Assembly: GCF_025420585.1 (NCBI RefSeq)
Contig: NZ_JAOEGB010000009.1
Coordinates: 124,001-188,000, forward strand
Length of the DNA: 64,000 nucleotides
Direction: 5' to 3'
Origin: Planotetraspora sp. A-T 1434
GTDB lineage: Bacteria; Actinomycetota; Actinomycetes; Streptosporangiales; Streptosporangiaceae
A program made the position numbers and the translations under genes. Of the stretch, positions 50,674 through 56,519 are shown piece by piece (within the stretch, counting starts at the first letter, position 1; every line of letters begins with the position of its first letter). A model generated the notes under the pieces. The model worked only from the letters and a program-made list of their open reading frames with translations, made no database searches and was not told the origin of the DNA.

Positions 50674-50728
50674 GACCACGCATCCTCCCAGGCCGCGCCA
50701 CCCAGTGCCAACGCGACCCGCCCCCGGC

Positions 50729-50845
50729 GTGATCATGCACACATTCCTGAGAAGCGCTCTGATCGGCCGCTCCTCCTGACGTGATCATGCACATGTTCCC
50801 GGCTCGGGTGCGTGAGGAGCGACTACACGCGGCGTGATCATGCGG
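50729..50845 (+). repeat. Intergenic phased repeat cluster E (3 units)
   Basis: Forward cores start at 50729, 50781 and 50834 (spacing 52 and 53), within the 236-bp divergent gap upstream of mnmA. This shows the repeat is not confined to gene 3' ends. Confidence 0.87.
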
Positions 50846-50894
50846 ATGTCCCTGAATGCCTGACGAGGCTGAGCCGCCTTGCCCGCCGTACGGG

Positions 50895-50900
50895 TAATCT
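50895..50900 (+). promoter_or_regulatory. -10 candidate for mnmA
   Basis: TAATCT lies 9 nt before the mnmA ATG, compatible with a nearly leaderless transcript, though AAAGGG between them could serve as a weak ribosome binding site. Confidence 0.4.
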
Positions 50901-50909
50901 CAAAGGGTT

Positions 50910-51995
50910 ATGAGTCCCACACAGAGGCTTCGCGTGCTCGCCGCCATGTCGGGTGGCGTGGACTCCGCCGTGGCCGCCGCCCGGATCGCCGAGGCGGGTC
51001 ACGACGTGACCGGCGTTCACCTCGCGCTGTCGTCGAATCCCCAGTCCTACCGCACCGGCGCCCGCGGCTGCTGCACGCTGGAGGACGCCCGCGACGCCCG
51101 CAGGGCCGCCGACGTGATCGGCATCCCGTTCTACGTTTGGGACATGGCCGAACGGTTCCACCGCGACGTGGTCGAGGACTTCGTCAGCGAATACGCCGCC
51201 GGTCGCACACCCAACCCGTGCCTGCGCTGCAACGAGAAGATCAAGTTCGAGGCGGTGCTCGACCGGGCGCTGGCGCTCGGCTTCGACGCCGTCGCCACCG
51301 GACACCACGCCCGGCTCTCCGACGGTGTCCTGCGGCGCAGCGTGGACGAGGGCAAGGACCAGTCGTACGTGCTCGGGGTGCTCACCCGCAAGCAGCTCTC
51401 GCACGCGATCTTCCCGCTGGGCGACTCCACGAAGGCGGAGGTGCGCGCCGAGGCCGCCCGCCGTGGGCTGACCGTGGCGGACAAGCCCGACAGTCACGAC
51501 GTGTGCTTCATCGCGGACGGCGACACGCGGGCGTTCCTCGCGGAGCGGCTCGGGGCCGCCGAGGGGCCGATCGTCGACGCGCTCACCGGGCAGGTCGTCG
51601 GCAGCCACGAGGGCGCCTACGGCTTCACGGTCGGGCAGAGGAAGGGCCTGCACATCGACCGTCCGGCCGCCGACGGACGGCCTCGCTACGTGCTGTCGAT
51701 CGAGCCGGTCTCCAACACGGTCACCGTCGGGCCCCGGACGTCCCTGGAAGTCCTGAGCATCGTGGGTGAGCGGCCCATCTGGAACGGCCCGGTGCGGGAG
51801 CCGTACGAGCCGATCACCTGCACGGTGCAGCTGCGCGCGCACGGCGAGGTGTACGGCTGCCGCGCCCAGCTCTCGGGCGACTCGCTGCACATTGAGCTGG
51901 ACGCCCCCGCCACGGGAGTCGCGGCGGGCCAGGGCGCCGTCCTGTACGACGGCGACACCGTCATCGGCTCCGCCACGATCGCCTCGGCGGCCTGA
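50910..51995 (+). CDS. mnmA: tRNA-specific 2-thiouridylase MnmA
   Basis: 361 residues. The PP-loop [16 protein letters not shown] is at the start, the first catalytic cysteine is in [14 protein letters not shown], and the second in [35 protein letters not shown] is the tRNA-binding signature. It adenylates and thiolates U34 of Glu, Gln and Lys tRNAs using sulfur passed on from a cysteine desulfurase. No frameshift. Confidence 0.95.
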
Positions 51996-52044
51996 GCGGT
52001 CCTGATCGGTCCTGATCGGTCCTGATCGGGTCCTGATCGGGTCC
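51996..52044. repeat. 10/11-bp tandem repeat after mnmA
   Basis: GGTCCTGATC is repeated about five times (two units with an extra G) between the mnmA stop and the convergent MBL gene stop. Confidence 0.85.
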
Positions 52045-52676
52045 TACGGGAGCTCGACGGAGTCGCCGACCGGGATGCGGCGCATGTCGGTCTTCTGCTT
52101 CTCGGCCTCCATGCCGAGCCAGCTGTCGATTAGCATCAGGCCGATGTCGTTGGCCAGGCCGTCGTGCGTGGAGTACGCGCGGGCCGGGCGGACCTGGCGC
52201 AGGTACTCGATCGACTCGGGAAGCTTGAGCCAGGGGGCGGTCGTCGGGACCAGCAGGGTGGGCACCTCCACACCGGGCGGCGTGAACGCGTCGCCGGGGT
52301 AGAAGACCTCCTCATCCACCAGGAAGCCCACATTCTGGATGATCGGCGCGTCGGGATAAGTCGGGGCGTGCCACTCGCCGATCACCCTCACGCCGAATCC
52401 CGCGGTGGTGAAGGCGTCGCCGTCCCGCACGACCTGGACCTTCGCCGGAATGTCGCCGAGCTGGTCGGCCACGGCCTGGCAGGTCCACACCTCCAGGCCG
52501 GAGCTTGCCTTACTCAGCTGCTCGACGTCGACGTGATCGAAGTGCTCGTGCGTGATCAGCACCGCTCGGGCCCCCTCAAGGAGGGACTCCCCGCTGAACT
52601 TCCCCGGATCGATGACGAGCGTCGACCCGTCCTTCTCCAGCCGCCAGCACGCGTGCCCGAGTTTGGTGAGTTTCAT
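52044..52676 (-). CDS. MBL-fold metal-dependent hydrolase
   Basis: 210 residues. The metal motif is THEHFDHVD (HxHxDH type), with further ligands in EWHAP, YPGDAFT and the C-terminal STHDG. It resembles UlaG/YycJ-like small beta-lactamase-fold hydrolases; substrate unknown. The ATG at 52676 has TAGCTT exactly 7 nt upstream and also AGGG, so it may be leaderless. It diverges from the MetE-like gene with only 19 bp between starts. Confidence 0.82.
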   Translation of the reverse strand: MKLTKLGHACWRLEKDGSTLVIDPGKFSGESLLEGARAVLITHEHFDHVDVEQLSKASSGLEVWTCQAVADQLGDIPAKVQVVRDGDAFTTAGFGVRVIGEWHAPTYPDAPIIQNVGFLVDEEVFYPGDAFTPPGVEVPTLLVPTTAPWLKLPESIEYLRQVRPARAYSTHDGLANDIGLMLIDSWLGMEAEKQKTDMRRIPVGDSVELP

Positions 52677-52695
52677 GTTCCCTAAGCTAGACCTT
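52677..52695. promoter_or_regulatory. Symmetric bidirectional leaderless promoter candidate
   Basis: The 19-bp gap contains TAAGCTA (52683-52689). On the plus strand TAAGCT ends 7 nt before the GTG at 52696. On the minus strand TAGCTT ends 7 nt before the ATG at 52676. Both match TAnnnT -10 boxes of leaderless genes and share five base pairs. Confidence 0.65.
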
Positions 52696-53721
52696 GTGAA
52701 TGACTTTCCCTGGGACGGGGCCACGGCCACGGGTGTGGGGTCGTACCCCGGCGAGGACCATCTGGAGGCGCTCCAGGTGGCCTTCGGCGAGCTGCCCATG
52801 CCGTACCTTCCGGAGCTTCCGGCCAGGGGAGTCGGCGCGGACATGATCGGCCGGGGCGCGTCGCTGCTGGTGGAGCTGCCCGTCGAGGTCCAGCCCTCCG
52901 GATGGCGGCTCACCGACCGGCCGGGCCGCGACGCCAAGCGGGCCTATGACCACCTGCGCCGCGATCTCGACGGCCTGGAGGAGGCCGCCCAGGGGTACGA
53001 GGGGCCGCTGAAGATCCAGGCGTGTGGCCCGTGGACGCTCGCCGGGGCGATCGAGCTGCGGTACGGCGACAAGGTGCTCGCGGACGCGGGAGCCGTACGT
53101 GACCTGGTGGAGTCCCTGGCTGAAGGGCTGGCCCAGCACGTCGCGGACGTCCGGGGCAGGGTTCCGGGGGCCCGTCTGGTCGTCCAGCTCGACGAGCCGG
53201 GGCTGCCGGGAGTGCTCGCGGGGACCGTGCCGACCGCGTCCGGCTTCGGGCGGCTCGCCGCCGTCGAGCCCGCCATCGCGGCGGAACGGCTCCGCACCGT
53301 CCTGTCGGCCCTCGCGCCTGCCGCCGCCGCTGAGGCAGGGGTGTTCCCGATCGTGCACTGCTGCGCGCCGGGCGTGCCCTTCCGGGTGCTCCATAGGGCG
53401 GGCGCGCGCGGGATCTCCCTCGACGCGTCGCTGCTGCGGCGCGCGGACGAGGACCGGATCGGCGAGGCGATCGAGGCCGGCACGGCGCTGTTCCTCGGAG
53501 TGGTGCCGGGCACGGACAGCCGCCTGCCCGACGTCGGAGTGGTCGCCAAGCCCGCGGTCGAGCTGTGGCGGCGGCTCGGGTTCGCTCCCGCGCGGCTCGC
53601 CGAGCAGGTCGTGCTCACCCCGGCATGCGGACTCGCCGGGGCCTCTCCGAAGTACGCCCGGGCGGCGCTCGCCGCGTGCCGGGAGGCGGCGCGCGTGCTC
53701 CGGGACGACCCACGCGAGTAG
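52696..53721 (+). CDS. Cobalamin-independent methionine synthase family protein (MetE C-terminal domain-like)
   Basis: 341 residues, about half a full MetE, containing only the catalytic barrel. WDGATATGVGSYPGEDH opens it. Zinc ligands are expected at the HC of IVHCCAPGVPF and the Cys of TPACGLAGASPKYA. Without the N-terminal MetE domain it may use a different methyl donor or a simpler folate, as in archaeal MetE-like enzymes. It is regularly found near mnmA and ligA in actinomycetes. Start GTG 52696 is leaderless by its TAAGCT box. Confidence 0.8.
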   Translation: MNDFPWDGATATGVGSYPGEDHLEALQVAFGELPMPYLPELPARGVGADMIGRGASLLVELPVEVQPSGWRLTDRPGRDAKRAYDHLRRDLDGLEEAAQGYEGPLKIQACGPWTLAGAIELRYGDKVLADAGAVRDLVESLAEGLAQHVADVRGRVPGARLVVQLDEPGLPGVLAGTVPTASGFGRLAAVEPAIAAERLRTVLSALAPAAAAEAGVFPIVHCCAPGVPFRVLHRAGARGISLDASLLRRADEDRIGEAIEAGTALFLGVVPGTDSRLPDVGVVAKPAVELWRRLGFAPARLAEQVVLTPACGLAGASPKYARAALAACREAARVLRDDPRE

Positions 53722-53746
53722 GCCGTCCCAGCTCATCCCAAGCGCC

Positions 53747-53959
53747 CGCACCTGCTCGTGGGCGAAGATCAAGTGGCTGGCGGACCACGGGAAGTACCGG
53801 ACGGCGACCTTCAGGAACTGCTCGCAGTCGACGCCGCGCGCGTTCCGGGTGAACGCTGGCTACATGCTCTTCGCCAAGGTCAAGGTCTGCCGGGGAACCG
53901 CCGCCAAGGTCACCGGCAGGTGCTCGGGATGGGAGGGCGTCTGGTCCCAGGGCGGCTGA
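53747..53959 (+). pseudogene. Fragment of a small cysteine-containing (perhaps secreted) protein
   Basis: The frame reads CSWAKIKWLADHGKYRTATF, then NAGYMLFAKVKVCRGTAAKV and CSGWEGVWSQGG before the stop. Lys/Cys spacing and aromatic residues look like a real protein, but there is no start codon or signal peptide upstream; the 5' part runs into the MetE-like gene in another frame. Probably a truncated gene. It could also start at an internal ATG. Confidence 0.35.
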
Positions 53960-54084
53960 GCCCCGCGATCGTTCCCGTTCAGCGGGGATGAAAGCCGGCC
54001 GCAAGCGGCCTGCCGTACTCCTGGATCGGATCGCCTCTGATCGCGGGAGCCGCGCATCGTCCTCGGTGCGGCTCCCGCCGGGAG

Positions 54085-54220
54085 GTGCGGCTCCGCGAGA
54101 GGTACGGCTTGCGCCGGGAGGTGCGGCTCCGCGAGAGGTACGGCTTGCGCCGGGAGGCGCGGCTCCGGTCGTTCCTTGGCCCCGCGACGGCCCCGCGACG
54201 GCCCCGCGACGGCCCCGCGA
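54085..54220 (+). repeat. 36-bp and 11-bp tandem arrays upstream of ligA
   Basis: Two exact 36-bp units (54085-54120 and 54121-54156, beginning GTGCGGCTCCGCGAGAGG) have partial copies on each side. From 54180 the unit CCCCGCGACGG is repeated three times plus nine bases. Inverted GCGGCTC/GAGCCGC words near 54050-54075 suggest hairpins. Confidence 0.88.
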
Positions 54221-54311
54221 CTCGGACGGGAAGCCGGGCCGTACAGACCCTTGGCACGATGCGGGAGGGAAGATGTCGGTGGTCGGCGATACGGTTTCTC
54301 TGGGTCGTTGA

Positions 54312-56519
<2,208 letters not shown>

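Follow-up and report, generated by a model that had tools for sequence, protein, structure and literature searches.

Between two divergent genes of the window (the whole 64,000-nucleotide stretch of Planotetraspora sp. A-T 1434 DNA that was analysed) lies a gap of only 19 bp, positions 52677-52695, which putatively contains an entire core promoter, as its sequence and the comparison of loci suggest. On the minus strand, the gene at 52044-52676 starts with the ATG at 52676 and encodes an MBL-fold hydrolase (Lactamase_B_3; Pfam PF13483, E 5.4e-21 from residue 2); on the plus strand, the gene at 52696-53721 starts with a GTG and encodes a MetE-like protein with a cobalamin-independent synthase catalytic domain (PF01717, Meth_synt_2, E 1.3e-11). 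The NCBIfam cut-off is reached by neither protein. Read along the plus strand, the sequence runs from the CAT that complements the minus-strand ATG (first base 52676) through gttccc-TAAGCTA-gacctt to the GTG at 52696. Two candidate -10 hexamers are interlocked in the central seven bases: TAAGCT on the plus strand (52683-52688), 7 nt before the GTG of the MetE-like gene, and TAGCTT on the minus strand (52684-52689), 7 nt before the ATG of the MBL gene. The first T of TAGCTT pairs with A52689, the base used by the MBL direction only. The preliminary description of this DNA had reported the gap, the TAnnnT on both strands of TAAGCTA and the 7-nt spacing on both sides, all of which are exact to the base. 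Neither start in the window is preceded by a Shine-Dalgarno-like motif (AGGA, GGAG or GAGG, 4-16 nt upstream). No RNA family at or above its gathering threshold was found in 50700-54500, and no E. coli-type sigma-70 promoter in 51900-53900 by a scan that demands a -35 match. The window also holds tandem arrays on both sides of the pair: one of a 10-bp unit (5.3 copies, 51991-52045) between the convergent ends of the MBL gene and of a gene at 50910-51995, and two adjoining ones (36-bp unit, 2.9 copies; 11-bp unit, 4 copies) at 54065-54221, upstream of a large ORF at 54330.

How widely is this arrangement kept? The MetE-like protein was matched in 57 of 60 relatives and in 334 of 341 genomes of the family, which we take to be Streptosporangiaceae; named relatives with the protein include Microbispora, Sphaerimonospora, Planotetraspora, Herbidospora, Acrocarpospora, Streptosporangium and Nonomuraea. 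Its upstream region was examined in 117 genomes (30, then 27 new ones and 60 chosen among the matches listed), five of the first 30 loci coming from outside the family; the remaining family genomes, most of them less similar or further members of Nonomuraea (genus g4), were left out. A set of 45 named loci added seven, the other 38 being dropped as identical to an included locus over the 70 nt around the start, for a total of 124 loci. In 67 of these the two starts lie close together, with gaps of 19 bp (n = 34), 18 bp (n = 10), 24 bp (n = 12), 23 bp (n = 9) and 28 bp (n = 1), together with locus L160, where the script misplaced the MetE-like start and inspection by eye gives a 23-bp gap. All 67 have a TAnnnT 6-8 nt before both starts (66 by script, L160 by eye), and the hexamer of the MetE-like gene is accordingly kept in 66 of 66 script-scored loci. 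Spacings on the MetE-like and MBL sides are 7 and 7 nt in 46 loci, 6 and 7 in 14, 7 and 6 in five, and 6 and 8 in one. The starts used for interlocked loci are those homologous to the query's, and the count is partly circular for Nonomuraea, where the MetE-like start was picked among in-frame candidates for having a hexamer. The interlocked register, TAnnnTA, occurs in all 44 loci with an 18- or 19-bp gap and spans 14 genera, which answers the objection foreseen in the preliminary description, that the gap might not be conserved in relatives. Loci with 23- or 24-bp gaps, including L160, have another register, AnnnTAnnnT, in which the two hexamers share a TA; it is found in Nonomuraea and two other genera (L135, L156).

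Where would the two messages begin? An extra in-frame plus-strand ATG at 52675 arises from a CATG in the window's genome. However, 17 of the 25 distinct 19-bp gaps have an A at 52677, hence lack this ATG, and the MetE-like start codon is GTG in 44 of 44 interlocked loci; because of this, GTG 52696 is the likelier start. The 5' end of the MetE-like mRNA is thus predicted at or within 1-2 nt of 52696, a start deduced from conservation. For the MBL gene the start codon is ATG in 42 of the 44 interlocked loci and GTG in two, and start-codon conservation together with position relative to the hexamer would place the 5' end of a leaderless mRNA at 52676. If both 5' ends sit on the start codons, they are 20 bp apart.

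The wider genome offers a context for leaderless starts. In 1.32 Mb of it, in which a simple codon-based gene caller written for the analysis called 998 genes, TAnnnT precedes candidate starts 48, 56 and 32 times at 6, 7 and 8 nt, versus 2-12 occurrences at any other spacing between 0 and 24 nt. A mechanical count on 460 kb gave a like peak (39, 48 and 31), although one control (ATC/GTC) likewise had a higher count at 7 nt, 44 compared with 11-39 for the other spacings. In the genome sample, 2 of the 136 genes with a hexamer have a Shine-Dalgarno-like motif, versus 345 of the 862 others. At the locus itself the split recurs: 2 of 106 MetE-like starts with the hexamer have such a motif versus 14 of 17 without it (123 of 124 loci counted), which suggests that the MetE-like gene has changed between two modes of translation initiation. 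Starts without a hexamer belong in 15 of 17 cases to genus g6, Streptosporangium, and most loci of that genus (L007, L051, L052, L057, L059, L061 and others) have a MetE-like gene with a Shine-Dalgarno-like motif and without TAnnnT. Before the MBL start, such a motif is found in 7 of 44 interlocked loci.

Could the conservation reflect recent common descent or coding constraint, without promoter function? Nearly all the tabulated close-gap loci come from one family, and among the 41 wobble columns that served as a comparison for the 19-bp gaps (average 1.15 bits) ten are as conserved as the core, at 1.6 bits or more. But the core lies outside both conserved reading frames. Over the 25 distinct 19-bp gaps its seven columns carry 1.60-1.76 bits (mean 1.71), part of the deviation stemming from a single sequence, that of L055/L124, which is shifted by a base, whereas the ten flank columns vary, averaging 0.74 bits. 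Moreover, both hexamers survive shifts of spacing and register. Descent or coding constraint is therefore scarcely credible as the explanation.

A further comparison concerns the seventh base of the core, which serves the MBL direction only. After the MetE-like hexamer, all 44 interlocked loci have A and none of the 62 other loci with such a hexamer does, the base there being T in 40, G in 16 and C in 6; as the loci share ancestry, these counts do not represent independent events. In the genome sample, A follows the hexamer in eight of 136 candidate leaderless genes, two of which are the MBL/MetE-like pair itself. This bears on the idea that the promoter works one way and its symmetry is accidental, so that the hexamer would serve the MetE-like gene only, the MBL gene being either barely transcribed or dependent on a promoter within the MetE-like gene. 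The MetE-like hexamer does stand by itself in 40 of the 57 loci without a close MBL gene (which lies farther away in 19 of them and is absent nearby in 38), and incidental TAnnnTA strings exist, such as one in the window's own genome at C115:253801. Yet the extra A is present in every interlocked locus and in no other locus with a MetE-like hexamer, and loci of the shared-TA register have retained, in its place, a complete and separate MBL hexamer. A one-way promoter is thus improbable. Of the 19 MBL genes that lie farther away, 11 have a TAnnnT of their own, 6-7 nt upstream of the start and each time followed by G; in the other eight none was found at 5-9 nt.

The symmetry can also be read as that of an operator, in which case a dimeric protein regulating both genes would bind CTAnnnTAG, and the likeness to -10 elements would be secondary. 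It is indeed lengthened by C at 52682 in 18 and by G at 52690 in 23 of the 25 distinct gaps. Full symmetry would then be expected wherever the promoter stands, but it is not kept where the MetE-like promoter stands alone, because 34 of the 40 such promoters away from the MBL gene retain a C ahead of the hexamer and none has an A behind it (0 of 62 outside the interlocked arrangement). The shared-TA register also has a different symmetric core. An operator is accordingly very improbable, more so than a one-way promoter.

Is the string alone remarkable? The pattern CAY-N6-TANNNTA-N6-RTG has two sites in the 7.78-Mb genome (136 contigs) and 33 in the 60 relatives, against 80 for a reversed-pattern control; seven of the 33 are the MBL/MetE-like locus. 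Only one side of the second site in the window's own genome, C115:253801, carries an ORF start, that of a protein resembling a Ser/Thr kinase by eye. Being no commoner than its control, the bare string was rejected as evidence. What goes beyond chance is the placement of the hexamers between two conserved starts, because both are kept in 67 of 67 close-gap loci. An identical 25-base near-palindrome, which looks like a conserved operator, turned up on opposite strands in two genera (G027:C40:117727-117751 and G022:C24:178396-178420). Among 172 script-called divergent pairs in the 1.32 Mb, hexamers occur on both sides in 12 start combinations (11 pairs), and they overlap in only two, the MBL/MetE-like pair and, in the form with a shared TA, a MarR/unknown-protein pair, so the overlapping two-way arrangement is uncommon in this sample. 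The latter (L175:11898-11927; G000 contig C115, 31898-31927) is a second candidate two-way leaderless promoter, with a 24-bp gap and a shared TA between a MarR-family gene and one whose protein has no Pfam match; in 60 genomes a single other close match (64%) turned up, interrupted by an internal stop and situated at the edge of a contig.

Taken together, TAAGCTA is very probably a leaderless bidirectional core promoter that produces both mRNAs. This reading is favoured because the 6-8 nt spacing is kept on both sides and the core is kept while its flanks vary, and because there are two alternative overlapping registers and the MBL-only base is lost where the MBL gene is elsewhere. RNA polymerase with the housekeeping sigma factor would bind TAAGCTA in either orientation. 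With TAAGCT as the -10 element, the MetE-like mRNA would start on or next to GTG 52696; with TAGCTT, in the opposite orientation, the MBL mRNA would start on or next to ATG 52676. Each orientation's A(-11) would pair with the T(-7) of the opposite one, so that four bases (TANNNTA) would suffice for the two promoters. Neither mRNA would carry a leader, and translation of both would proceed without Shine-Dalgarno pairing. We infer transcription both ways, the start positions, the sigma factor and the mutual exclusion of polymerases, two of which would presumably be unable to bind TAAGCTA at once. Counted against the two-way promoter are the lack of enrichment of the bare string, the Shine-Dalgarno-like motifs at some MBL starts (7/44), the separated MBL genes without a hexamer (8/19), the negative E. 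coli-type sigma-70 scan and the kinship of the loci.

How often have the arrangements changed? On the MBL tree (86 rows, several with long branches and unsure placement) the four arrangements need at least seven changes; the interlocked label needs three, of which well-supported branches force one, and the shared-TA label five, two of them forced. In Nonomuraea typhae (L065:9973-10006) the hexamers lie 2 bp apart without overlap and both 7-nt spacings are kept; by its sequence, this locus reads as a form between shared and separate promoters. A bolder proposal is that the two genes are held in a linked, mutually exclusive expression ratio by a leaderless two-way promoter so small that regulators would find next to no space beyond the coding sequences, and that sharing has been re-established after gap changes (interlocked, shared-TA and one nearly touching form), so that the sharing itself, and not only each promoter, would be under selection. 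This is conceivable but doubtful. The preliminary description had gone from one symmetric leaderless core serving both genes, which the comparison strongly supports, to the conclusion that they compete, and this does not follow: according to the available text of PMC12825309, five tested E. coli bidirectional promoters had basal activity too low for competition, although activating one direction could repress the other.

Why does this locus matter? The MBL/MetE-like loci amount to a natural mutagenesis series, in which a base serving a single direction comes and goes with the gene read in that direction. The comparative evidence is unusually good for a promoter of a known kind; it indicates, at the level of sequence, that both directions of two-way promoters yield useful mRNAs in a high-GC group, and the locus offers a compact system for asking whether polymerases compete at such a promoter. 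No title on the MBL/MetE-like pair appeared among the matches listed for leaderless two-way promoters, a search whose coverage mostly leaves aside subscription papers, and none on the family among those listed for transcription starts.

How does the locus compare with what is known? Warman, Grainger and colleagues have described bidirectional prokaryotic promoters with symmetric -10 elements (PMC12825309, PMC10268837), which are defined, in the available text, by divergent starts 7-25 bp apart. The commonest geometry given there has starts 18 bp apart with -7T and -11A reciprocally paired (PMC10268837), and a 23-bp geometry is named in PMC12825309. TAAGCTA likewise carries -10 elements that overlap on opposite strands, with reciprocal key bases; the interlocked register corresponds to the commonest published geometry and the shared-TA register works out to the 23-bp one, so that a single orthologous gene pair displays two of the three geometries found in the available text. 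Predicted starts, taken at the start codons, are 19-20 bp (interlocked) or 24-25 bp (shared-TA) apart, within the 7-25 bp range, and 29 bp apart in L065, outside it. The MBL/MetE-like promoter differs in that its mRNAs are predicted to be leaderless, so that it fills the whole gap, whereas the published cases, as far as the available text goes, were mapped in E. coli and Salmonella. In actinobacteria, leaderless promoters are described with TANNNT a few nt before the start codon and few Shine-Dalgarno motifs (PMC3160421, PMC3898074, PMC4895711, each as available in part). The position of TANNNT, 7 nt before the start on both sides here and thus within about 6-8 nt, and the scarcity of Shine-Dalgarno motifs are alike, but in those texts the promoters serve single genes, while the MBL/MetE-like pair shares bases. 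Closely juxtaposed divergent promoters are called common in the available part of PMC3898074, and its divergent M. tuberculosis pair prpD (Rv1130)/Rv1129c has two leaderless mRNAs, as predicted for MBL/MetE-like; the figure legend that describes this pair carries no statement, in the text available, that the -10 elements share bases. Leaderless TANNNT promoters and bidirectional promoters are thus already known, and the value of the MBL/MetE-like locus is the comparative series that it adds to them.
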